Part shown: piece after piece, positions 2-20,002 of the stretch
Position numbering within the stretch: position 1 is the stretch's first letter
How the letters are laid out: the number at the start of each line of letters is the position of its first letter
Assembly (NCBI GenBank): GCA_018398765.1
Contig: JAHBMJ010001234.1
Span: 12,501-33,426, forward strand
Direction of reading: 5' to 3'
Origin: Chromera velia
Lineage: Eukaryota > Sar > Chromeraceae
DNA length: 20,926 nt
The notes under the pieces: generated by a model
The model's input: the letters and a program-made list of their open reading frames with translations, nothing else
Database searches by the model: none
What the model was told of the DNA's origin: nothing
Program-made: the position numbers and the translations under genes

Positions 2-3000
2 AAGGAAAACAAGAGAGAACGCAGAGAGGGGGGGCGGCTCTTGCAAAACTTCAAGAGTGGTGCGCTCCGTAGTGCTCTCGGTGGCCTGGCCTCGGGGCCC
101 CGTAGCTCTTTGCCCCTCCCCTCTCACGTGAACCCCCCACCCCCTTCCCCATCTGCCGAACCAGAGGAGACAGCAGGGGGTGGGACTCAGATCCCCTCAC
201 CGACTCGAGGCGATGGTCTGACGTCTCTCCTCCCCTCGATCCTCTATCCCCCCCCTCGATCCTCCCGTGGCACCTTTCCCCTTCCACCTCCCCAGAACCC
301 AGTACAGAATGCTGTAAACGAGTCTGCCGCTTCTGCAAGTGCCACCGCTCCGACCCATATCCCCTCTCAACGCTTCTCTTCCTCTTCTTCAAGCGCATCA
401 CAGGCAAAGCCCGGGCTCTCCCAAACACACCCACCCAGATCCCCCCGTCCGTTTTTGTTCAGGGATCCCTCCGCAGCAGACAGAGACAACAGAGAGAACC
501 AAACCCCCAGTCGCCGTCTTTCGCCTGTCTTCGAGGCTTCCTCTGTTTCGTATGTCTCTCCACACCCACACAGAAATCGAGAAGCGTTCTCTTCCCGCCC
601 ACTCGAAAGTCGAGAAGTGAGTTCACCACCGCAGATGCAAAGGGAGTCAGCGGGAGTGAAAGTAGAAAGGGGAAGAGAGAAAGGTTGGGATAGTGAGGAA
701 GAGGAAGAAGAGGACGAATTTATGAGAAGGGAAAGAGGAAGAGAGGAAAAATGGGACAGTGAAGCACAGGAAGAAGAGGACGAATTTATGGAGGGGGAAA
801 GAGGGAGAGAGGAAGAATGGGACAGTGAAGCACAGGAAGAAGAGGACGAATTTATGGAAAGGGAAAGAGGAAGAGAGGAACAATGGGACAGTGAAGCACA
901 GGAAGAAGAGGAGGAATTTATGGAAAGGGAAAGAGGGAGGGAGGAGGGGTGGGGCGGAGAGGTGGAGGAAGAGGCCAAGTCAGATTCGAGAGAAGTGAGA
1001 GTGAAAGTAGAAGAGGGCCTGGAGGAGGAAAACCCACAGCATCCTTCTGACAGTCAGCCTGTTCCGTCTCCTGCTGCTGCTCTTGGGCGAGATGCTCATT
1101 CCCCCCCTTCTGTTCCCCCTGCTGCTGCTGCTGCCGAACCAAAAGAGACGACAGAGAATAGAAAGTCTGCAGCCAAACGAGAAAGCGGAGTGGATGGGGT
1201 GAGTTGGGACAGAAAGAATTCCCGTTGGGTTGTGAAATATCGGGAAGATGGCCGAGTTTGCTTTCAGCGATTCCCCCCCGTGTCTTCCTACGAAAATGAT
1301 CAGGAGGCTCTGGAGGTAGCCATTCAGTTCAAAAAAGATATGACGCCAGCGGGAGAGGAGGAGAGTGAAAGAGAGGGGGGAAAAGGAGACCCTCCGCCGG
1401 ACCAGAAGGGTTCTCAGCAGCTGTCCGGACATACAGCCGCACCCCCTTCCTCGTCTAACAGAGGTAGAGGGAGAGCAGCAGGGACCGAGGAGAAGAGAGA
1501 GAGCGGGGTGGTTGGCGTTACGTGGCAGAGGCAGCACGAAGCTTGGGCTGTCTCCTGTTCACTTGGTAAGTCGGGTTCTGCTCAAATTGAGTTTCCTGAA
1601 TCGAATTTTGGGAAGGAGAACGCACTGCAGAAAGCCATAGAATGTCGGGAGGAGATGTTGAGATTGAAGGGGGAGGGTTGGAGTGACCCCAAGGCTATGC
1701 GAAAGAAGATGCGCGAAGTCTTTCCGCTCCCCCCTAGGATCTCATCCGCTCCCTCATCAGATACAAGAAAAGAGCAAGGCGTTAGAGAAGAAGGAGAAGG
1801 TGGAAGAGGGAAGGTGCGAGATGATTCAGAGTCGCAATCCAACGAGAGGAGTTCAAAGAGTGAGAGAAAGGAGGGAGACACTGTCAGCGGGCTGGCAGAG
1901 ATTGACTGGCGGGAGAGTCATAAAAGTTGGCGGGTCTGCTGTACTTTTTTTCCGGGTGCAGGTGGGAAGCTGACACTTTCTTTCCCCGAGTCGAAATACG
2001 GAAAGATCGGGGCAGAGAAGAGAGCGAAGGGGTGTAAGTTAGAGATGAATAAAATGAGAGAGGAGGGGAGAACAGACGTTGAAGAGATGAATGCAGAGCT
2101 TGCAGAGAAATACAAATCCGACCCTTTGAATCAGAATCGCTCCTCTTCCTGTGCCTCTGCCTCTGCCCCCTCGTCTTCTGCCCGGGTGACCGGACAACAG
2201 AGTGGAGGGTTGTATCTGAGTAATCGTTTCCCGCAGAAGGGGGGGGGGAAGGCAAGAGAGAGTGGGTTTGTTGGGGTTGCGTGGAACGATCGCAATCAAT
2301 CCTGGCAGGTCAGTTTCAGGGGGCAGTACGGAGGTTCCTTTGCTGTCGGTCTGCATGGAGAAGAGAAGGCCCTGCAGAAAGCCGTTGCCGCCCGCAAAGC
2401 GCTGCAAAGAAAGCGCTTGGGAAGGGGAAGGGGGAGGAGACCTGCGGGTCTTGCCGAAGGGCGTTGCAGGAGAGAGTCCGAGACAAAACCAGAGAATGAT
2501 TTCGGGTGGTCGTCTGGGGTAGAGGGAGGGGGGAAGGAGGGAAAGCATGAGAGTGGGGTCAGTGGAGTCTCTTGGGAGCAGTATGGGAGAAGGTGGTTTG
2601 CCAACATTTGGATAAATGGTCACCAGTTTGGCAAGTACTTCAGTGCGTCCGTGCATGGGTACAAAGATGCTTTGCAGAGAGCAAAAGAGTGTCGGGAAGA
2701 GTTGGAAAAGATGAAAGCGGCAGGGAGAACAGACATTGAGAAAATCAAGGCAGAACTCGACAAAAAGTTTAGGCAGAGCGGTCGGCCAGAAGGGGTTCAT
2801 TGGGAAAAGACAGGGAGGAGATGGATTGCCAATATCTCAGTTCAGAATCGCCCGCTTCACCTCTACTTCCCTGTGCATGTGTATGGGAAGAGTGAGGCAC
2901 TGCAGAAAGCGACCGAGTGTCGGAAGGAGATGATTAGGATGAAAGAGGCCGGAAGAACAGATGCGGAAGGCATGAAGGCAGAACTCCAGAAGAAGTTCAA

Positions 3001-5889
3001 AAAAACCAGGAAACCCACCGCACACCTGAGGTTCTCGTCTGTCCCTCTGTGCTCTTCTGTCCCTCCCTCTGCTTCTGCCTCTTCCTCCTCTTCTGTTGCC
3101 CAAAAGCACAGACCCTGCAAAAAGAGAAAAGAGAGAGAGGCAGGGTCAGATACTGAGAACAACTACGGAGAGTCGGAGGACGATGAGAGCAGTGAGGGGG
3201 GTGAAGAGAGGGGGCAGGATAGGTCGGAAGGTGTTAGGTGGAGCACGTCTGGGGTAGAGGGAGGGGGGGAAGGAGAGGGAAAGCATGAGAGTGGGGTCAC
3301 AGGTGTCTCGTGGGAAAAGAGTGGGAGTAAGTGGTTTGCCAACATTTCCATAAATGCTCAGCAGTTTGGCAGGTACTTCAGTACGTCCGTGTACGGGTAC
3401 AGAGGTGCTTTGCAAAGAGCGAAGGGGTATCGGGAAGAGTTGGAAAAGATGAAAGCGGCAGGGAGAACAGACATTGAGAAAATCAAGGCAGAACTCGACA
3501 AAAAGTTTCCTAGTCCCGTGCAGGGCAGGGGGCGGCAAAAGAGAAAAAAAAGAGACGGAGAGTCAGATGCAGAGAATTGCAAGGGGGGGTCAGATGAGGA
3601 TGAGAGCGAGGGGGGGGTTGAAGAGAGGAGGCAGGGCTGTCGGCCAGAAGGTGTTACTTGGGAAAAGACAGGGAGGAGATGGATTGCCAATATCTCAGTT
3701 CAGAATCGCCCGCTTCACCTCTACTTCCCTGTGCATGTGTATGGGAAGAGTGGGGCACTGCAGAAAGCGACCGAGTGTCGGAAGGAGATGGTTAGGATGA
3801 AAGAGGCTGGAAGGACAGATGTGGAAGGCATGAAGGCAGAACTCCAGAAGAAGTTCAAAAGTATCGGGAAACCCACCGCACACCTGAGGTGCTCTTCTGT
3901 CCCTCTCTCTGCTTCTGCCCCTTCCTCTTCTGTTGCCCTACAGCGCAGAGACTCGAAAAAGAGAAAAAAGAGAGAGGCAGGGTCGGACACTGAGAACGAC
4001 TATGGAGAGTCCGAGGACGATGAGAGCAGTGAGGGGGGTGAAGATAGGGGGCAGGATAGGTTGGAAGGTGTCACGTGGAAGAAGTCAAACAAACAATGGA
4101 TTGCAGGAATCTCGATCCGCAATCGCCTGCTTCAGATCGGTTTCTCCACGTCTGTTTTCGGTGGGAAGAGCGAGGCACGAGAGAGGGCGAATGCATGTAG
4201 GCGGGAGATGGAGAGGATGAAAGAGGCAGGAAGAACGGATTTGAAGGACATCAAAGCAGAGCTCAAACGGAAGTTCAAAAGTGGCACCGGCCCCCTCGCA
4301 AGGTCGCACGCCTCCCTGTCGTTTGCGGGAAGGAAAAGACATGGTGAAGGAAAGAAAGTGGGTGGGAGGGGGAGAGTTACCGTTTGTTCCCCTGACAGTA
4401 GGCCCGCGGATCGGGGTGGCAGTATTGGTGTGCGCCGATTGAATGGAGTGCGTGCTTCATATTGGGGCGCGAACTGCAGAATTGCCAACAAGGCAATGGT
4501 GATTTGGTTTTCCAACCTGAGGTACGGAGAGGGGGGTGCTCTGCAGAAGGCGAAAGAGTGCCGGAAGGAAATGGAACGCATGAAAAAGGAGGGGAGAACA
4601 GACGCTGAGGGTGTGAAAGAGGATCTCCACAGAATGTTCAAATCTGAGGAGAGCACTCACTCTGCCGTTCAACCCCCGTGTCATTCTTCTTCTTCTTCTT
4701 CTGCCTCTGCTTCTTCGTCTTCCGCTGCCTCGGCGGCTGCAGTTGGCAGACAGCGTGGAGGGGGTCTGTGTGTGAGGGGAGATTGGCAGCAGCCAAAAGG
4801 GTGCATAGGGGAAGGAAGAAAGAGGAAGGCAGATTCTCCCCTCTCCCCTTCCTCCTGCATTAGCCAAGCTGTGGCCGACGCCAAGCGCCCGTGTGAGAGT
4901 GCCGCTGATGACAGTCCCCCCACCTACACCAGCAATGTGCCGGGTGTCAGATGGGCACCTTCGGGCAACTCTTGGACCGCCTCTTTGAAGTTTGGGGCAC
5001 GGGTGAAGATTGAGAGCTTCTCCGCAAAGAAATATGGATTTAAAGCAGCGAAGGAGATGGCAGAGAAGAAAAAGAGAGAGTACCTATGGAAAAAGCAGAA
5101 GAACCTCATATCGTTGAGACAGAAGAACCAACACAAAGGTCTCTCTGCCTCTGAGTCTGCTCCGTCCCGAAGCGCCCTCCCGCCTCGCCCCGTTTTGAGG
5201 TACGGTTCCAATCTGTCTTTTTCTTCTGTTTCCGGACGGGGGGAGACAGAGGGAAAGGAAGGAGGAGGGGCGCCCATCTGCACATTGAAGAGACGCCTTG
5301 CTCTTTCAGGAGGCGCAAACGGCAGCGCGTCTGCCGCGTTGAGGAAGAAAACCAAAAAGGCACCGATGCCGCCAGTGGGAGAATTGGATGACGACGGGAA
5401 GAGGGTGGAAGGGGAAGGGAAAGGGGAAGGGGACGGTGATTGGCAGCAGAGCGAGAGAGAAAAGAAACGTCTTGGTGGGGGCATGGATGAGGATGAGGAG
5501 GGGGAGTACGCGAACGAGGGAGACATCAGTGGGGGGATGAAAATTGAAGGGGGGAGGGAATGTATGCAGAGACTTTTTGGTCCCCCCGTGTTTTCTGGTG
5601 CACCTCTTCCCTCTTCTTCTGTTCCCTCTTCCTCTTCGTCTTCCTCCTCTTCTTCCTCCTCTTCGTCTTCCTCCTCTTCTTCTGCCTCCGGTGCAGTAGT
5701 GCAAGCCCAAAGAAGTCTCGGGAGTTGGCAGGGGGACGGCAGAGCTGTTGAAGGAAAGGGAGACGGGGAGGGGGAGGAAAAGTCTGAAGACGAGGACGAT
5801 ATTAATAAAGACGCAGAGATAGGCCGACACAGCAGTTTCTACGAGAGTGCTCTGGTGGCGGCGATGGAGCACAAGAGACGACACCTCAT
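2..5889 (+). CDS. Exon 1: low-complexity N-terminus plus eleven AP2-like DNA-binding repeats
   Basis: A single uninterrupted reading frame of almost 5.9 kb. Residues are numbered from codon 41. Residues 1-200 are rich in Pro and Ser. Residues 211-300 are an acidic Glu/Arg tandem repeat. Eleven AP2-like repeats occupy 380-1685, separated by linkers rich in Ser, acidic residues or basic nuclear-localisation-like clusters such as KKRKKRE. A 19-Ser run lies near residue 1863. No membrane segment or signal peptide is visible. The multi-AP2 organisation with basic and acidic linkers is typical of ApiAP2-type regulators of apicomplexans and chromerids, though eleven copies is unusually many. Cryptic donor-like strings occur inside the exon (GTGAGT at 1199, GTAAGT at 1566), but the frame reads through conserved AP2 sequence there, so they are probably not used. 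If the GTGAGT at 5890 is not a donor, translation ends at TGA 5891-5893. Confidence 0.9.
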
Positions 5890-6380
5890 GTGAGTGAGCG
5901 AGCGTCTCTCCCTTCTTTGGTTGGGGCTACTTTTGGATGCATGGGTGAATTGGGAGAGAGCGCAGTCTGCCTGCGGAGTGCCTTCCTCGCATCTCTCCCT
6001 TTTAGTTGCTCTGACCGAATTGATCTTTGCATTGAGACGCAGTGACTGAGTGAGTGTGAGTGAGCCTGTTATCACCGATGTTTGTTTTGACTCTTGCGAT
6101 GATTCCTTCTTTGACAATTCCGTTCCGTTCATTCAATTGTCTTCTACTTGCTTGCTTCTTTGCAGGAGACTTCTGCACCCCGGCAACCTTCCCGGGGTGT
6201 GGAGGTACGAGGACTCAGACAGAGACGCGAGGGCAGACAGACGTCAGTCAGTCAGACAGGAAGGAAGGAGCCGACTTGCTGGTGGACTGTAAACCTTTGG
6301 AGTCCTGACGTAGATTCGTTTTTGCGGTATCCGTCCCTGTTTGTGTCTGCCTGTTTGTCTGGCTCTGCCTCTGTTCTCTG

Positions 6381-6449
<69 letters not shown>

Positions 6450-7976
6450 GGGAGAAAAACGAAACATCCTATATGTCTGTCGATCAAAGTGTTGCCTCTT
6501 TCTGTCTCTTCCCTTGCGTGGAGGCGGTTAAAGTAGTCTGTGACATCAAAGAGCGTGTGGAATACCAACGGGGGGTGTCTGCTGCCCGCGTTGTCTGAGT
6601 GAACTTCTTGTTCTTTTGCCGTTTCTTTTTCCTTCCTTTCTTCCTTTTTGTGTTCCTTTCTGCCCTCCTTCCTTCGTTTCGCAATTCGTTTGTTTATTTA
6701 TGTCCTTTCTCTCTCTCTCTCTCTCTCCCTGCTTGTCTCTTTCTTTTTTTCTTTCTTTCTTTCTTTCTTTCTTTCTTTCGCTCTTCCGCTCTTCTTCATT
6801 CTTACCTACTTTCCCTGTCTGCCGTGTACGTAAAAATAAAGAGGGAAGAAAAGGAAAAAACTAGTGAGTGTCTGAGGCAGTAAGGAAGAAAAAGAACAGA
6901 AAGAATGGCAGAAGACAACAAAACGGGGGCACGGGCGTGAGCGTGTTTTTGCTTCTATTTTTCTCTTTCTGCTCTCTGATTTTACCCTTTTGTCCTCTCT
7001 TTCTTCCTCCCCCCTTTCCTCACATGCAGGTGCGCGAACAAGGGCAGAGGAAAAGAACACGACCGTCTCTCGAGAGACGACCCAACAGCTTAAGAAGAGA
7101 TGGTGCACTCCTCTCGTCCTCCGGGGAAAGGAGGTCGCAGTCGTCGGGGATGGCGTTGTAGTCCAGAAGTCAGTCAGTCAGTCAGTCACCATGCAGGTCT
7201 CTCTCTACCTTTCTCTCTCTCTCTGCTGCGTCCCGAGCTGCCTGCCAAGTAGTTGGTGTTTGCAATCACTGATCAGACGCGAGAAAGTCCGGGAAAAAGT
7301 ATATTTCCGCATTGGACTTCAACTCCAGCCGTCTCGGCCCCTCATCATTCGGGTCAAAGATTCTCTCTTTTCCAACAATCGATCGGCTGAATCGATCATT
7401 CGTCGAGTGGATTGATATCGCAAAGTAGAACCGCGATAAGAGGCTGTAGCCATGCAATCGACCCATTTGCCTCGCTTGCCCGTGGTGTCGCGGCCATCTT
7501 CTTCCTTCCTCGTTCGTTCGAAGCGCATCACAGCAAACGACGCGACGAAACCCATACTTGCAGACTTCTCTCTCTCTTTTCTTCATTTGTCTGTTTTCTC
7601 AATAATTTCTTCTGACTTGCTTCGGAATCCACTGACCCTCGTCTTTCTATCTCTCTCTCTGTCTGTCTGTCGGTCGGTCTGCAGTTCCACCCTGGGTGTT
7701 CTGGTTGGGAGCGGCCTCTTCGTGACTCGGTCAGTAGTTGGGGTGGAGCTTTTCTGACGTTGAGATGCCCTTGGTGTTTTTTTTTCTGTTTTCTGTCTGT
7801 CCTTTTGCCTTGTGGACTGCACTCCGCACTTGAACAAACAATACACCATTTATTTCTCCAAGGTGAAAGATACGCACGTGTCTGCATGTGTGTCCATCCT
7901 GTTGTTTGTTTCTGAGTTTGTAGGAGTAAGAATTTCGCTCTGCATGTCGCCCGCAAAACCCTGTGTGTGTGTGAGT

Positions 7977-8019
<43 letters not shown>

Positions 8020-9855
8020 TACCCCCCGTGTGTTTGTGCGTGTGTGCGTCTGCAGCGACTTCGAAGAGGGAGACATCATCACAGAGTATGTCGGCTTTCA
8101 GATCGACAGACCGACTGCGCTGAAGCTGCGGCAGGAGGGGAGGGACTCGCACATCGTCGCTCTCAGCAAGGGAGACCGATATCTGGATGGCCTGGTACGT
8201 CTTTCTTTTGCCTCAGGGGACCTTTCCTTGGTATGAATGAAGTTGTGGTTGTTCGTTCCTTTGTTGTTGGCGCTCTAGATTCGTTCCGCCCGAGAGCTTT
8301 CGGTGTGCGTCCTCGTTTGAGACTCTGTGCCGGTGGCAGCCCTCGGCAGTCACCAGACCTCATGCAGATGTCTCGTTGTTGCTTATAGGCAAGTGTTAAT
8401 TCCCCTTTTCTCTTTCTTTCTTTCCTTGTTTTTTCTGCATGCAGAAATTCCCCCACCCGGGTCTCGGAGGCGCGCAATTCGCAAACGACGGCAACGTGAA
8501 GATTGACGGTCGGCAGGCTCTGGGGGTGAACGCCGAGAAGTTCTGGAGGTACTTCGAGGACATCGTCAGTCGATCGATCGATCGATCGAGAGAGACTTAA
8601 GGGGATGCTGGCTGGTCTTTCTTGTAGGGTCGTTGCTCCGTGAATCGATCAAGCATTCTTCTGCTGTGAGGGGAGGGAGTGCTGTGTGAAGGGAGGGCAT
8701 CCAGTGGAATCATGTCTCTGTGGAATCTGGAAGAGAAAAATGGGTGATGACATAGAAGGCAAATGACACAACGGAAAAATATATCTTGTTCTGCATGTGC
8801 TCATGAGGCAAACGAGAATGAGGCTGCCGATCGTCTCCTGTCTATCGTCCCTGCTTGTCCCTGTGTTGAGGGGGTGTGGAGGGAGGAGGGACTTCTTCTC
8901 TTGATTTCGCCGCGCCTTTGTTCTGACGCTTTCTTTTCCTCTGTCTTTCTGTCTATCTGTCTGTCTGTCTGTTTGTCTCTGCCTGCAAAACTCATAAGAC
9001 ATTCTGCCCGGCCGTGCTGTCTCGTTCTGTCTAAGGGAAAGAGAAGAGGGAAACATGTGGAAAAATACGAATACAGTCTCTTGGTCGTTGTGTGTCGGTC
9101 TGTCAGCGTCTTCTGTCTTGTCTTACCTCTGAATCAAGTTCAAAGCTTCGCCCCCGGCTCTGCCAGTGAATTGATTCTCTCAATTGCCCCTGCCCGCCTC
9201 TGTCTGTCTCTGTCTCTCTGTCTCTGTCTGCCTTCCTTTCACGCAGGGGGACGAGAGGGTCTTCTTGAGGGCCACCAGAGCAATCAAAAAGGGAGAGGAA
9301 GTTTTTATTTCGTCAGTCGATCTTTGCTGCTTGCATGCTTGCTTGCGCGATCGTCTTCTTTCCCCCTCCTTCTCTTTCTATTTGAGTTGCGGTTTCGCAC
9401 TGTCTCTTCCCCCTGTGCTCATCCCCATTTCCCTGCAACCCTCTGGTCTTCTGCGTCTGCGCCTGTGTGTGTGTGTGGGGGGGNGGTGGGTGGGTGTCGA
9501 GCCCGCCTGTGTTTCTCTCTAAAAGCAACCAGGAAACAGCCTCCTTTCGACGCACAGGGGGATTCACCATCCTGTTTGTGACTTTGCCTGCAGCCAGCAA
9601 TCCGTCTTTCTTCATTTTCTTCGAATGACTTCCTTCTTTGCATATTCTTTTTCCATGCTGAAGACACCTCGTGCCGGTCACCGCGTGGGGCTGCAAGAGG
9701 TGGTTGTGATGCACAAGCGGCAGAGAAGCTTTATTTTCTGTATTAGGTGGTTGTCCGATCAAAAAAGGGATCTAGCTCGTCCTCCCTCAGACTGATTGCA
9801 TGTGCATCCCTTGCTTGCTTGCAGGTACGACAAGTACTACTGGAGGGGCGAGTGA
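2..9855 (+). CDS. AP2-repeat array / SET-domain fusion protein, 8 exons, 5' partial
   Basis: Proposed exons are 2-5889, 6166-6242, 7030-7168, 7685-7729, 8056-8194, 8445-8564, 9247-9311 and 9825-9855, with a TGA stop at 9853. Donors are GTGAGT, GTCAGT (five times) and GTACGT; all seven acceptors end in GCAG. Codon phases (2,1,2,2,0,0,2) match at each junction with no internal stop. From the TTG at 41 the product is about 2,154 residues: low-complexity N-terminus, 22-residue acidic repeats (about 211-300), eleven AP2-like repeats (about 380-1685), a poly-Ser linker, then a C-terminal SET domain. AP2 domains bind DNA, and SET domains transfer methyl groups from SAM to lysine. The inferred role is a nuclear, sequence-directed methyltransferase or chromatin regulator. 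The frame is open to the window edge with no ATG before 635, so the true start is probably upstream. The alternative is two genes, with the first stopping at 5893. The SET exons have no in-frame start codon of their own; ATG appears only across the 5889/6166 junction, which favours fusion. Confidence 0.72.
671..936 (+). repeat. 66-bp in-frame tandem repeat (22-residue acidic unit), 4 copies
   Basis: Copies start at 671, 737, 803 and 869, each 66 bp, with a partial fifth after 935. Each unit encodes a Gly-Arg-Glu-Glu start, a Trp-Asp-Ser-Glu centre and a run of acidic residues ending Glu-Phe-Met-Glu. Copies 2-4 are nearly identical, so the expansion is recent. The whole-codon period keeps the frame. 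The segment is likely a charged helix or disordered acidic spacer. Confidence 0.95.
1178..1342 (+). other. AP2-like repeat 1
   Basis: Residues about 380-434. It starts RESGVDGVSW, followed by the second Trp in NSRWVVKY and an EALEVAIQFKK helix. It is among the closest to the canonical AP2 fold, though the middle strand and turn (FPPVSSYEND) are longer than in the others and lack the usual YG. Confidence 0.8.
1496..1710 (+). other. AP2-like repeat 2
   Basis: Residues about 486-557. It starts RESGVVGVTW and has W in EAWAVSC, the turn FPESNFGKEN and the helix ALQKAIECREEM, followed by a basic tail. It resembles repeat 3 in the FPES turn, which suggests a shared duplication history. Confidence 0.8.
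1883..2122 (+). other. AP2-like repeat 3, divergent first strand
   Basis: Residues about 615-694. The first strand reads VSGLAEIDW rather than ESGVxGVSW. WRVCC, the FPESKYGK turn and the C-terminal EEGRTD tail shared by repeats 5-10 are present. It was assigned by alignment to its neighbours. Confidence 0.65.
2255..2422 (+). other. AP2-like repeat 4, shortened
   Basis: Residues about 739-794. It starts RESGFVGVAW, with QSWQVSF and an ALQKAVAARKAL helix. The turn is abbreviated (AVGLHGEEK), so the middle strand is shorter than in other copies. Confidence 0.7.
2546..2770 (+). other. AP2-like repeat 5 (type a)
   Basis: Residues about 836-910. It starts HESGVSGVSWEQ, with RRWFANIWING, the turn YFSASVHGYK, an ALQRAKECREEL helix and the tail AAGRTDIEKIKAELDKKF. 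It is nearly identical in DNA to repeat 7, so it is one half of a recent duplication. Confidence 0.88.
2783..3007 (+). other. AP2-like repeat 6 (type b)
   Basis: Residues about 915-989. It starts RPEGVHWEKTGRRW, with an ISVQNRPLHLYF strand, a VYGKSEALQKA helix and a GRTD tail. It is nearly identical to repeat 8. Only a four-residue linker separates it from repeat 5. Confidence 0.85.
3284..3508 (+). other. AP2-like repeat 7 (type a)
   Basis: Residues about 1082-1156. It is a duplicate of repeat 5 with few substitutions (for example WINGHQF to SINAQQF). The tail AAGRTDIEKIKAELDKKF is unchanged. Confidence 0.88.
3641..3868 (+). other. AP2-like repeat 8 (type b)
   Basis: Residues about 1201-1276. 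It is a duplicate of repeat 6, identical over most of the domain. It is separated from repeat 7 by a 44-residue basic/acidic linker that is absent between repeats 5 and 6. Confidence 0.85.
4061..4285 (+). other. AP2-like repeat 9 (type b, diverged)
   Basis: Residues about 1341-1415. It starts LEGVTWKKSNKQW, with an ISIRNRLLQIGF strand, the turn FSTSVFGGK and a GRTDLKDIKAEL tail. It is preceded by the same acidic linker that precedes the truncated repeat start at 3221. Confidence 0.8.
4418..4648 (+). other. AP2-like repeat 10, degenerate N-terminal half
   Basis: Residues about 1460-1536. The helix half (YGEGGALQKAKECRKEM, then EGRTDAEGVK) matches the family well. The first strand reads GSIGVRRLNGVRASYW, so the usual first Trp is not in place. 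It may be impaired for DNA contact. Confidence 0.6.
4931..5095 (+). other. AP2-like repeat 11
   Basis: Residues about 1631-1685. It starts SNVPGVRWAPSGNSW, then FSAKKYGFKAAKEMAEKKK. The KKYGFxxAKE segment is the closest in this protein to the ApiAP2 helix signature of apicomplexans, so this is probably an old copy distinct from the duplicated internal ones. Confidence 0.82.
5627..5683 (+). repeat. 19-Ser homopolymer encoded by mixed TCT/TCC/TCG codons
   Basis: A pyrimidine-rich in-frame run with no change of frame, near residues 1863-1881. It is a flexible linker between the AP2 array and the C-terminal part of the protein. The mixed synonymous codons argue against pure trinucleotide slippage. 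Confidence 0.9.
5890..6165 (+). other. Intron 1 (276 nt)
   Basis: The donor is CAT|GTGAGT and the acceptor is CTTTGCAG|G after a pyrimidine-rich stretch. It interrupts an ATG codon in phase 2. The apparent stop TGA of exon 1 lies at intron positions 2-4. Removal joins the AP2 frame to the SET frame. Confidence 0.72.
6166..9855 (+). CDS. Exons 2-8: SET domain (lysine methyltransferase-type)
   Basis: These seven exons add 204 residues after the AP2 exon. Exon 2 (6166-6242) and exon 3 (7030-7168) give a charged linker and the first strand. Exon 4 (7685-7729) carries GSGLFVTR, the SET motif I. Exon 5 (8056-8194) gives DFEEGDIITEYVG, the second conserved SET block. Exon 6 (8445-8564) carries GGAQFANDGN at the place of the usual RFxNHSCxPN motif. 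Exon 7 (9247-9311) gives RATRAIKKGEEVF. Exon 8 (9825-9855) gives SYDKYYWRGE and the stop. The catalytic-type Tyr after GEEVFIS is present. No Cys-rich pre-SET or post-SET is visible. The NHS core is replaced by NDG, so SAM binding or specificity may differ from histone methyltransferases. The protein could be a protist-type SET enzyme with a non-histone substrate. The domain call is strong; attachment to the upstream AP2 exon is inferred from splice phases. Confidence 0.85.
6382..6448 (+). repeat. (CT)n-(GT)n compound microsatellite
   Basis: About 26 bp of CT directly followed by about 34 bp of GT, within intron 2. Confidence 0.95.
6737..6779 (+). repeat. (CTTT)n microsatellite
   Basis: A pure CTTT run of about 30 bp preceded by T-rich sequence, within intron 2. 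It is pyrimidine-only on the + strand. Confidence 0.95.
7169..7684 (+). other. Intron 3 (516 nt)
   Basis: The donor GTCAGTCAGTCAGTC follows CAGAA. The acceptor is GGTCTGCAG, preceded by CT and GTCT repeats. Phase 2: AA plus T makes an Asn codon. No recognisable coding sequence lies inside. Confidence 0.72.
7685..7729 (+). other. Micro-exon (exon 4, 45 nt) encoding SET motif I
   Basis: It encodes STLGVLVGSGLFVT with split codons on both sides. The GSGLF block is the SAM-contacting glycine motif of SET domains, so the exon is needed for a complete fold although it is very short. Confidence 0.82.
7730..8055 (+). other. Intron 4 (326 nt) with (GT)n near its acceptor
   Basis: The donor is GTCAGTAG and the acceptor is GCGTCTGCAG. 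The (GT)n array at 7962-8018 ends about 37 nt upstream of the acceptor, where a polypyrimidine tract would normally lie. Confidence 0.8.
7962..8018 (+). repeat. (GT)n microsatellite
   Basis: About 57 bp of nearly pure GT with two GA interruptions, within intron 4 close to the splice acceptor. Confidence 0.95.
8195..8444 (+). other. Intron 5 (250 nt)
   Basis: The donor is CTG|GTACGT and the acceptor is TTTTTTCTGCATGCAG|A, in phase 0. It is the only intron here with a GTACGT donor. Confidence 0.85.
8565..9246 (+). other. Intron 6 (682 nt)
   Basis: The donor is ATC|GTCAGTCGAT, leading straight into a CGAT repeat at 8571-8589. The acceptor is CTTTCACGCAG|G after CTGT-rich sequence. Phase 0. Confidence 0.82.
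8571..8589 (+). repeat. (CGAT)n short palindromic repeat
   Basis: About five CGAT units beginning 6 nt after the donor of intron 6. Each GATC or CGATCG unit is self-complementary, so the run can form a hairpin beside the splice site. Confidence 0.9.
9312..9824 (+). other. Intron 7 (513 nt)
   Basis: The donor is TTTC|GTCAGTCGAT (the same ten bases as intron 6) and the acceptor is TTGCTTGCTTGCAG|G. It contains one undetermined base at 9484 in a GT/G-rich stretch. The split Ser codon is TC plus G. Confidence 0.82.
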
Positions 9856-15244: not shown

Positions 15245-15547
15245 TCAATTCTCCACCTCTCTCAAGCACCTCATTATTGCTTCAAACCCCTGCCGCGGCT
15301 TATGATTAAGCATCAAGAAGCAGCTCTTAAAGGCTTCTACCTCTGCCAGGCCTGCCCCTTTAACCTTAAAGATTGCTGCCACTCTTTGCGCAGCGGTAAC
15401 CCTGTCAAAAAGAGAGAGACCATCCTTCACTTCTCTCACTACCGCTTTCAATGCTGCTTGCTCCTCTCTCCTCCCTATGCAATCAGTCAGGCGATGCACA
15501 GCATCGTCAACCGGTCGTCTGTCTTGATCTAGACAACGTGCACACAA
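15245..15547 (-). pseudogene. LINE C-terminal Cys/His knuckle segment
   Basis: It begins with CARC (15533-15544), followed by DDAVHRLTDC. This CxxC...H...C spacing is typical of the zinc knuckle at the end of many LINE ORF2 proteins. It is out of frame with the reverse transcriptase by one base at an A run. A stop follows at about 15245. Confidence 0.7.
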
Positions 15548-15559
15548 TTTTTACTGCAC

Positions 15560-17724
15560 CCCGCCATGGCATGCTCCCCCCCCCCCATGACTTTGAGTAA
15601 AAGGGGCGTGATGGAAATGCCTGCCTGAAGAAAGGGCGAGGGCAGAGAGCACAGCACCGACATCTTCTTTCCTGAATGGATTCGTTGGGTAGAAAGGAGC
15701 AGTTTAGCAAATCTCTCTCTCGATGGACGTGCTTTCTGAAAAGCGGTGCATGCAGCGTTGGGTGGGTAGAGTGATGGGTTTCTTCTTGGATAACTGTTGT
15801 CGTCTTCATTCTCAGCTGCCCATCCCTTCAACCACTCCCCTTCTGTCTGGACCGCCATTTCTCTTTTCAACCGGTTCCCTACCAGGGCTCTTTCTGTTTT
15901 CCATTCTCTTTGCCTCATATCTTCATACTGCAGTGACCACACGCTGCGGGCCTCTTCCTCACTTAGAGAGAGGAGCTTGGCGGTCTCTTTCGGGAGCAAC
16001 TTATTGATAGATGCATGAAATGATGGGCACAGCCCTCCTCTGTATATACACAGGACTGTTTTAGGGAGGTCTCGCTTTTGGAGGTGAAGAGAAGAAAGGA
16101 AAGAAGCAACACGACTTCGCATGACACAGAGCATAGAGGACAGACTAATAGAGAAGAGAGAAAGAGAGGTGAAAGAGTTGTGAGGGAGACGGAAGGCCCA
16201 ACGAACAAATCTGAGTTGCAGCGCGGTCAGTGTGTCGATGTCCTGTTTCCTAAGAGGGAGTGTCTCCAAGGAGTAGGTAACGACAGGCAGCCAAACCGAC
16301 CGGAAAAGCTGCACTTTCGTAGAGGCATGAAGGGGACCAAAAGAAGAGAGGAGGCCCTGAAGAGACCCTAGGGCCTTTGTTGCTGACTGTAGGCGTGCAT
16401 TTACACTCATTTTTAAATTCCCTTCCTTATAGAACATGCATCCCAGGTACTTATATTCATTCACCCATTCAACCACCCTCCCATCGAACGTCACTTCCCC
16501 TTCCTCTCCGGCCCCCCGGGAAGACAGAGTCATGATCTTCGTCTTTTTTAGATTGACCAACAACCCTTGTTTTCTACAGTATCTGTCTAATCTGTCTATT
16601 TTTCTTTGCAGGTCTTTTCTACTGTGAGAGAGAAGGACGAGGTCATCCGCGTACCCTATACTGGATAGGAGGAAATCTGCGAGCAAGACAGCCTCCCCCC
16701 CTTCAAACCCCCCCTCCCTGCCTTACTGTCTGTCCGACGATTCGATCCCTTTCTCTATCCGTTCATGCAAATTATTGATATACAAAAGAAAGAGAAGAGG
16801 AGACAAAGGATCACCCTGCTTTACCCCTGCGCCCTCTTCGATGTCTGTCTGGCTGCCGTCTACTCTGGCCCTCACTGACGCATACATGACATGCACCATA
16901 TAAATGTCCTGTTCTTCTACCCCTTCCTCTCTGAGTCTCTCTAGCATTCTCTGCCAGGGAACACGATCAAAAGCTTTGCTAAAATCAACAAAGGCCCCCA
17001 GTAGAGCTTTCTTCTCTTTCTCACAACTCTCTATCACTGAGGCAAGGGCCGCAATTCCTTCTCTCGTCCCCATACCTTCTCTGAAGCCCACCTGTCTCTC
17101 GTCTATCTTAGTCTGTTTCCTCAGCCTACCTTTCTATAAAAAAGAGAAAAGCTTTGTAAGAGCGGATACCACGTGGATGGGTCTCCATTCTCCGCAGTCT
17201 AAGCACGGGGGTCCTTTAGGCACGGGCATAATCCAGATTGAATTCCAGCCCTTTGGCCATACACGAAAAAGAAACATTAAATTAAACAAAACAAACAAGA
17301 GAAGTTGAGAGAGAGAGGAGGTTGCAAAACAAAGTTCCATCAGTTGAGGGGGCAGGCCTTCGAGTCCCGCTGCCTTACTTAGGTCTATCTTCTTGACTGC
17401 ATTCTGTATGTCTGCCCATGAGAAGAAGGGAGAGTTAGGAGGGATAATAGGGAGGTCTGAGGGGAGAGGGGGGAGCCTAGGACCCGCGAAAACACTCGAC
17501 CAGAAATTTGTGAACTCACCTGCATTGGGTTTCAGGCCCTCTGCATCTCTTCCATCTATAGTGAGAGTCAGCCGGCGACGGAGTTTCCAGATCAGACACG
17601 GGTCTCTCTGTGTGTGATATGCAAGTCTCTTTAACTTCTCTTTTCTGTACGCTTTCCTTTTCTTCTCATAGAGTCTTGCTGTCTCTCTTACTATCTTCAC
17701 CTCAGCTCTACGTGCTTCCTTCAT
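15560..17724 (-). pseudogene. LINE reverse transcriptase domain, degenerate
   Basis: The fingers region carries IMPVPKG and a WRPI block. Motif A (FVDFSKAFDRVPW) is at about 16956-16994, motif B (GVKQGDPLSPLLF) at about 16790-16827, and motif C (YADD) at 16642-16653. A thumb and connector of about 300 residues follow. The catalytic Asp residues of A and C are intact, but two nonsense codons (17134 and 16723) interrupt the domain and a third lies just upstream (17734). Confidence 0.88.
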
Positions 17725-18234: not shown

Positions 18235-19192
18235 TACCAAAACAACCGTGCGATGGTGACTCGCACCCTCGGGGATAGGGATGGTGTGTAAGGACGGCTG
18301 TGTGAGGAGAAGGGATGGATCTGCCAAAGTGAGGTCAATGACCGTCCCCTCCCCTTTCCCTTCATTCTAAATGTCTTCTTCTGTAACATCGATGAAAGTG
18401 CACTGGTCAGAAAAGGAACTCCACCCACTTCCCCTGTCCCCCCCTTACGAGATTCTGCTCAAGCCGTGGTAGATGAGCATGTTAGACTGCTCACACATCT
18501 GTAAGACCGCTTTCCCTTGCTCAGTCACCACTGGCTTTCTGCACTGGCTTCGCCTCTCTCACCCTTTTACTAGAAAATCTTCTCTACCTTCCAACTCCTC
18601 AGCCTCTAGGTCATGCACCCAAGTCACTCCTTTGGGCATTTCCGTCCGAACATGTGCATTTGCGTCCGGGGACCCCCATCACCACTCTCCCATGCTCAAG
18701 TGGCACCGAACAGAGTGCATCCAAAAATAATTCCCTTTCTCTCGCTCTCTGCTCTATCTCACCTCTCTGACACGAATTGACCCCAACCCAATAATACCCA
18801 AAAACATGCAAAACAGAAGGGGAGGAAGACACAGGAACGTCAGGCTCTAGATAGAAAGGCAGATAGACTCCCCGCAAGACAACTTTTGCCACGCTGGGAG
18901 CCACAAGCTCCCACGTGGGACGATACTGACCGATGAGGGAGGAACGCGCCAAAATGGCCACCCCCCCTGTGCTTACGTTCTTATCTCTGGCTGCAGCGTG
19001 CACGTTCATCTTTCTTTTGAACCATTCGCGGTATGAGAAATTCTCTCCTTCAAAACCTCCCACCTTAACTCTGGTGGTCGGCATTTTTGTTTCCGTCAGT
19101 ATGGCAATATCGATAGTCAAAAAAAAAGAGAGAAGGGATCCATCATTTAGTTTCCCTCCCAACCCCCCGACGTTGTATGTTCCAACCCTCAA
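18235..19192 (-). pseudogene. LINE endonuclease domain, degenerate
   Basis: It starts LRVGTYNVGG and has ILTETK (catalytic Glu block), TGGVAILAR and GVYLPF. After the frameshift come a D-A-N-A-H block (the GDxNxH motif) and TVIDLTLADP (the S/TxIDxxL motif). The last motif reads SHH (18253-18261) instead of SDH, so an active-site Asp has been lost. Confidence 0.8.
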
Positions 19193-19533: not shown

Positions 19534-20002
19534 CGTATGCCGGGGGCGAGTGGGGTGCTTTTTGCCCCCCCCTCTGCATAGAAGACCAGCGCTTTTCCGC
19601 AAAAAACTCGTTCTCATAATTGGTAAGGAGTTAAAAGCTGAAACTTTGTATAAAAAGACGTTGTAACGATAGAAAAAGAACTGCGGAACAGATTTTTTAT
19701 ATTATTTCTATAGAAATATAGGCTGCTATATAAATTTTATGAGTTTTATACTAGGTTTTATACCGTTTTTCTTACTGTTGAAAACCGTTAAAAAATGACT
19801 GCAAAATCAAAAAATTTGTATGGCAGCCTATGTTTCTAGAAATGGTATAAAAAATCTGTTCCATAGTTCTTTTTCTATTGTTACAACGTCTTTTTACACA
19901 AAGTTTCAGCTTCTAACTCCTTGCCAATTATGAGAACGAGTTTTTTGCGAAAATGCGCCGCTTTAGGGGGGCAAAAAGCACCCCACTCACCCCTGGCATA
20001 CG
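19534..20002. mobile_element. 469-bp MITE-like palindromic element
   Basis: The termini are CGTATGCC and GGCATACG. The arms, about 19534-19740 and 19797-20002, are inverted copies sharing long blocks: GAGTGGGGTGCTTTTTGCCCCC, AAAAAACTCGTTCTCATAATTGG, CTGAAACTTTGT, AAAAAGACGTTGTAAC and GGAACAGATTTTTTATA. The centre is AT-rich with no coding capacity. The near-complete palindrome is typical of foldback MITEs derived from a DNA transposon. No target-site duplication is obvious. Confidence 0.85.

Follow-up and report, generated by a model that had tools for sequence, protein, structure and literature searches.

The window analysed here, a stretch of 20,926 nucleotides from Chromera velia, very probably carries one gene (eight exons within the window) that is predicted to encode a protein in which eleven ApiAP2-like repeats form an N-terminal array, followed by a conserved linker and, at the C-terminus, a SET domain. 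We favour this reading because of the sequence signals, the domain matches and the gene structure that is conserved in paralogues of the same genome. The main transcription factors of apicomplexans belong to the ApiAP2 family, and their action is generally attributed to partner chromatin enzymes. In the gene described here, a transcript spliced as modelled would join the AP2 exon to the SET exons; judging from family membership, the AP2 array would be expected to bind DNA and the SET domain may methylate lysines on nearby histones, and recognition of a DNA sequence and marking of chromatin would thus be found on one chain.

The frame that holds the AP2 repeats is open from base 2 to base 5893 of the forward strand, and its final codons, ATG TGA (5888-5893), run across a splice donor. 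The TGA makes up bases 2-4 of the donor GTGAGT (5890-5895), in the context CTCAT/GTGAGT, where the slash marks the exon boundary. The acceptor of this first intron has its AG at 6164-6165, and splicing to it joins AT (5888-5889) with G (6166), rebuilding an ATG codon. The spliced chain of the eight exons in Table 1 keeps its frame throughout, with intron phases of 2, 1, 2, 2, 0, 0 and 2, GT-AG boundaries in all seven introns and a complete SET domain at its end. The initial annotation had proposed that the apparent stop lies within the donor, that splicing to 6165 restores a methionine codon and that the frame stays compatible through six further introns into SET; all of this was borne out, the description of the donor exactly. 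The single N of the window (9484) falls in the last intron. The 5′ end of the gene lies beyond the window, and the 5,000 bases directly upstream of the window read N.

Table 1. Parts of the predicted AP2-SET gene, in positions of the window; AP2 repeats are those found with the family-trained profile.
Feature	Position	Strand	Remarks
Exon 1	2..5889	+	Low-complexity N-terminal stretch and 11 AP2 repeats, all in one open frame whose first ATG is at 635
AP2 repeat 1	1184..1363	+	
AP2 repeat 2	1502..1702	+	
AP2 repeat 3	1886..2092	+	
AP2 repeat 4	2261..2419	+	
AP2 repeat 5	2552..2749	+	Near-copy of repeat 7 (77%, amino acids)
AP2 repeat 6	2789..2977	+	Near-copy of repeat 8 (94%, amino acids)
AP2 repeat 7	3290..3487	+	
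AP2 repeat 8	3647..3835	+	
AP2 repeat 9	4061..4255	+	
AP2 repeat 10	4454..4618	+	Start incomplete
AP2 repeat 11	4931..5101	+	
Intron 1	5890..6165	+	Phase 2; GTGAGT...TTTGCAG; holds the apparent stop TGA, 5891-5893
Exon 2	6166..6242	+	Linker (RLLHPGNLPGVWRYEDSDRDARADR); equal length in C1740 and C2407
Exon 3	7030..7168	+	Linker ahead of SET (KKRWCTPLVLRGKEVAVVGDGVVVQ)
Exon 4	7685..7729	+	SET motif GSGLF
Exon 5	8056..8194	+	SET motif EYVG
Exon 6	8445..8564	+	SET motif FANDG
Exon 7	9247..9311	+	SET motif RVFLRATRAIKKGEEVFIS
Exon 8	9825..9855	+	C-terminal SET tyrosine (SYDKYYW); terminal stop TGA, 9853-9855

The count of eleven AP2 repeats in the initial annotation stands with a profile trained on the gene family, whereas the Pfam AP2 model (PF00847) passes nine stretches of exon 1 (E=2.1e-54, 182.1 bits, cut-off 33.3). 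Most of the repeats carry a conserved extra segment, RTDxExxK. When a profile of the 11 repeats was compared with solved structures in the PDB, nine sequences were matched at E<=0.1, eight of them AP2 proteins and one a lectin. The best match was Toxoplasma gondii AP2VIIb-2 (E=5.9e-13), AP2IX-6, AP2IV-1 and PF14_0633 were also found, and the AP2 matches bear apicomplexan-style names in what is a small structure library. The AP2 fold by itself is no proof of DNA binding.

Repeats 5-6 and 7-8, which contain pieces at a spacing of 738-858 nt with 88-94% identity, look like the outcome of a recent internal duplication, so the length of the array would seem to change by duplication. Between repeats 6 and 8, raw pS is 0.075 and raw pN 0.034 (pN/pS 0.45), and between repeats 5 and 7, the values are 0.204 and 0.107 (pN/pS 0.52). 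Positive selection on the array, of the kind associated with PRDM9, was considered and is not supported by the ratios in these two recent repeat pairs.

The same arrangement of exons recurs elsewhere in the genome. When the SET part, together with the final residues of exon 1, was used to search the 177.8-Mb assembly (4040 contigs), 45 matches were obtained at E<=1, in exon-by-exon clusters on several contigs; a PF00847 search of the same assembly gave 67 matches at E<=0.01. Four contigs besides the window's own appear in both lists. On three of them (C1325, C1740 and C2407), the SET exons are closely preceded, on the same strand, by a large AP2 frame; on the fourth (C3514), there is a weak SET match (E=0.55), with an AP2 match about 5.6 kb downstream. 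By the family profile, the fetched stretches of C1325, C1740 and C2407 hold 10, 8 and 7 AP2 repeats, in each case with the array in one long exon, and the Pfam model gives E=1e-62 (8 stretches), 2.6e-49 (6) and 1.1e-35 (3), respectively. In all three, the same linker and SET exons follow the AP2 exon on the same strand at a distance of no more than 450 nt.

A spliced protein-to-DNA aligner, given the window protein as query with neither intron positions nor phases supplied, put intron 1 at the residue where the window has it, each time as a phase-2 intron, in all four of C1325, C1740, C2407 and C1754. Agreement with the window in both position and phase extends to 7 of 7 introns in C2407, to all 6 of those reached in C1740 and to 6 of 7 in C1325, where intron 2 was not placed and one additional intron, called within the low-complexity region, was taken for spurious. 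For C1754, 4 of 7 introns agree (1, 3, 4 and 5), intron 2 was not placed here either, the last two were not reached and there is an extra intron upstream. Exon 1 ends with AT/GTGAGT in the window, AT/GTACGT in C1325, AT/GTCCGT in C1740 and AT/GTCAGT in C2407. An altered U1 behind the GTCAGT donors was also considered and rejected, as ACTTACCTG is retained both in the only U1 copy that passes the Rfam cut-off and in a second copy that falls short of it.

Exons 2 to 6 measure 77, 139, 45, 139 and 120 nt in the window, C1740 and C2407 alike, even though the proteins of C1740 and C2407 are only 53% and 50% identical to that of the window, which would be difficult to account for if the chain were not a single conserved gene. 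Since the same junction recurs in paralogues, it is more than chance, and the arrays, shared SET exons and intron agreement in C1325, C1740 and C2407 make the window gene one member of a small family. The proposal that the AP2 array and the SET domain form one protein thus gains support from the architecture shared by three paralogous loci and from conserved intron positions, phases and exon lengths.

The junction was also examined by scoring the real tail of exon 1 (19 residues) against 200 shuffles of it over the region formed by the end of exon 1 and exon 2. Shuffles scoring as high as the real tail or higher numbered 0 of 200 in C1740, 1 of 200 in both C2407 and C1754, 8 of 200 in C1502 and 200 of 200 in C1325. 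Judged by these scores, the tail is recognisably conserved in C1740, C2407 and C1754, weakly so in C1502 and not in C1325.

Read from the rebuilt junction methionine, the 205-residue product matches PF00856 with E=2.6e-9 and 37.8 bits (cut-off 22.4), covering profile positions 1-104 of 105. Among solved structures, a profile of five SET sequences found KMT2C as its best match (E=2.3e-5), followed by KMT2D, vSET, EZH2, NSD2 and KMT5A. A search for viral relatives of the SET block gave 234 pattern matches, none of which was confirmed. The catalytic motifs of SET domains are GxG, Y-x-G, NHxCxPN and a C-terminal tyrosine. GxG is kept in all five aligned sequences, E[YF]VG reads Y-V-G in three and F-V-G in two (phenylalanine for tyrosine in C1740 and C2407), and the C-terminal tyrosine is present in all three sequences that reach its place, while FANDG occupies the place of NHxCxPN in five of five. 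The window gene has its SET core in common with SET lysine methyltransferases (KMT2C/D, EZH2, NSD2, KMT5A and viral vSET), but differs from them in having NDG for NHxCxPN, its own linker and a RWxxP...GKxVAVxGDGV segment.

The presence of NDG in all five sequences leaves the activity of the SET domain uncertain, and it is conceivable, although we lean against it, that the fusion is real while its SET domain is a non-catalytic binding module. The change from tyrosine to phenylalanine in two paralogues would fit such a module as well, but GxG and the C-terminal tyrosine have been kept wherever they could be seen. Moreover, ND is also found in five of the six more distant SET loci of this genome that reach the NHxCxPN place (the sixth, C489, has NH), so it may be a variant of the lineage. 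Purifying selection on exons 2-7 likewise speaks against a non-catalytic module. Expressed as raw proportions, with synonymous sites close to saturation, pS and pN over these exons are 0.61 and 0.307 between the window and C1740, 0.682 and 0.343 between the window and C2407, and 0.524 and 0.213 between C1740 and C2407, for raw pN/pS values of about 0.4-0.5. In exon 2 alone (25 codons), the corresponding pairs of values are 0.352 and 0.398, 0.549 and 0.425, and 0.393 and 0.245, with no clear purifying selection between the window and C1740. A pseudogene was rejected in view of the 1963-codon open frame, the seven GT-AG introns and a pN below pS in exons 2-7 and in the two recent repeat pairs.

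The stop at the start of intron 1 brings up another reading, which we consider rather unlikely, in which the locus makes both products: retention of intron 1 or early polyadenylation would give an AP2-only protein, splicing would give the AP2-SET protein and the choice would act as a regulated switch. The retained-intron stop is immediate in the window and, by eye, in the more distant relative C619, again as a TGA inside GTGAGT, but the donors of C1325, C1740 and C2407 contain no such stop, so this feature is absent from the other three genes with clear arrays.

We give very little credence to a split of the locus into two neighbouring genes, one for an AP2-only protein that stops at the TGA and one for SET, driven from its own promoter and possibly starting with a short exon within intron 1. 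The AP2 frame does close at 5893, but the pair of AP2 exon and linker exon, with its phase-2 junction, is conserved in paralogues. As the initial annotation had stated, the SET exons of the window are without an in-frame ATG upstream: none is found ahead of exon 2 (40 codons) or exon 3 (53 codons) back to the first stop, and the 204 residues of the SET part contain no methionine, the rebuilt junction methionine not counted. The same lack of an upstream in-frame ATG holds for C1325, whereas intron sequence provides in-frame ATGs upstream of exons 2 and 3 in C1740 and upstream of exon 2 in C2407, as two separate genes would allow. Thus, the missing-start argument is not general: only in the window and C1325 does it exclude an ATG start of their own for the SET exons. 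On the other hand, the AP2 frames of C1325, C1740 and C2407 continue past the donor by unrelated residues before their stops, so there is no conserved C-terminus common to putative AP2-only proteins. Across the window gene and four paralogues, intron 1 measures 276-448 nt, which is also less than the median gene spacing of 989 bp that the chromerid genome paper gives for Chromera (PMC4501334).

A single AP2-SET gene thus remains our preferred reading of the window, and its linker-SET block is common to ten examined genes, some of them seen in part (the window, C1325, C1740, C2407, C1754, C619, C3470, C1502, C4013 and C1291; weaker genome matches were left out). Clear AP2 arrays are found in the first four. 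C1754 has one weak AP2 repeat by the family profile (E=1.9e-5) and none by Pfam, and since this weak repeat is not read in the frame of the exon 1 tail, the link between AP2 and SET is indirect there. The family profile found no AP2 in the fetched stretches of any of the other five. In two of these five more distant relatives (C3470 and C1502), the aligner again put intron 1, as a phase-2 intron, at the residue seen in the window; in C619, C4013 and C1291 it did not put it there. By eye, these last three show a basic tail and then a GT donor.

Where the array would stand, C1502 has an open frame that runs for 1103 residues or more. In C4013, there are exons that are Cys-rich and PHD-like (PHD_2 E=0.0021, short of its cut-off). 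The linker-SET family therefore looks modular, with an AP2 array, a Cys-rich PHD-like region or a long low-complexity N-terminus standing before the same block. In a tree of the SET region, the ten linker-SET genes are joined against four other SETs (100/99). The tree does not settle whether AP2 was added once: it implies two changes, and the AP2-bearing genes form one clade in 2% of bootstrap trees.

Several known systems invite comparison. With the ApiAP2 transcription factors of Apicomplexa and chromerids, the window gene has its AP2 repeats in common, and it differs from them in its long array, mostly with the RTDxExxK segment, and in combining that array with a SET domain in one protein. 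In PRDM proteins such as PRDM9, an array of C2H2 zinc fingers and a PR/SET domain share one chain. The likeness to them is an analogy of working, a DNA-binding repeat array with a SET-type domain, and the Chromera array likewise bears internal duplication; in contrast to PRDM9-type proteins, the repeats are AP2 domains instead of zinc fingers, the array is N-terminal and the two recent repeat pairs show no excess of amino-acid change.

A further case is T. gondii AP2VIIa-7, which, in the passages that describe it, has AP2, PHD and SET domains and turned up together with bromodomain proteins (PMC10470533). A chain with both AP2 and SET is thus already on record, and the remark of the initial annotation, which knew of no described AP2-array/SET fusion, has to be qualified in that respect; for a long array joined to SET, no description appeared among the literature matches listed, a scope outside which lay subscription papers, preprints and protein databases. 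Compared by description, the T. gondii protein has one AP2 domain, while the Chromera family has 7-11 in a row, on a chain that in the window is predicted from the gene model and paralogues. The window gene also lacks the PHD of AP2VIIa-7: hmmscan found neither a PHD nor a zinc finger in exon 1 (from 41) or in the SET part at E<=1, and weak PHD-like exons occur in the AP2-less relative C4013. Within the same literature scope, no description was found of a family with a shared linker, a phase-2 junction and exchanged N-termini, and neither 'SET domain' nor 'histone' occurs in the main text of the chromerid genome paper (PMC4501334). The long AP2 array and its gene family therefore seem to be undescribed in the literature searched.

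More tentatively, one could imagine that the phase-2 intron joins a constant linker-SET block to swappable N-terminal targeting modules, above all expanding ApiAP2 arrays, as a family of histone methyltransferases that would itself recognise the sequence of the loci to be marked, with no need for another protein to recruit it; the AP2-PHD-SET factor of T. gondii might then be a survivor of this old family, which would predate parasitism. Whatever its history, the gene would, if each frame were read by itself, be broken up into an AP2 gene and a piece of SET that has no start codon. The Chromera family provides a setting for the otherwise isolated AP2-PHD-SET factor of T. gondii and a case with which PRDM9 can be compared. 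If the chain is made as predicted from sequence, long AP2 arrays and SET on one protein would, in what is probably a free-living relative of apicomplexans, lead directly from a sequence in the DNA to a mark on histones.

Among the 27 introns inferred in the window gene and its three paralogues from the same genome (C1325, C1740 and C2407), 16 have GTCAGT as their donor, a tally in which intron 2 of C1325 was read by eye. A cytosine at donor position +3 is odd at such a frequency, and the U1 snRNA retains the usual ACTTACCTG despite the many GTCAGT donors. Several of these donors sit within tandem GTCA runs.

In exon 1, eight of the 11 AP2 repeats (2, 3 and 5–10) carry a conserved segment C-terminal to the AP2 core, resembling RMKEAGRTDxExxK, which is also present in repeats of C1740 and C2407 and which may form an additional helix. 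Given that exactly 5,000 bases directly upstream of the window (contig positions 7501–12500), either an assembly gap or sequence that was withheld, are all N, the start of the AP2-SET gene lies out of view.

The window also contains two candidate mobile elements. The reverse transcriptase frame is probably part of a broken non-LTR retroelement; the inverted repeat is perhaps a small transposable element. By eye, the frame at 18614–19192 looks endonuclease-like; it had no match in the Pfam search.

Features located in the window
Feature	Position	Strand	Details
Inferred GTCAGT donor sites	6243–6250; 7169–7184; 7730–7735; 8565–8570; 9312–9317	+	inferred introns
Reverse transcriptase frame	15532–16686	minus	PF00078, E=7.4e-10
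Further frames nearby	to 17724; 18611–19192	minus	by eye
Long imperfect inverted repeat	19534–20002		inner arms 19589–19718 / 19829–19958, 90% complementary
Outer arms of the repeat	19534–19570 / 19966–20002		95% complementary

Two more distant relatives share the SET block. In C619, an upstream exon on the reverse strand near position 3194 of the stretch analysed, read by eye, seems to end CCT|GTGAGT, with a TGA within the donor, an arrangement like that at the end of window exon 1. In C4013 (42001–46000), Cys-rich PHD-like exons lie upstream of the SET block in place of AP2, and these are reminiscent of the PHD domain in Toxoplasma gondii AP2VIIa-7, described as an AP2 factor with PHD and SET domains (PMC10470533).
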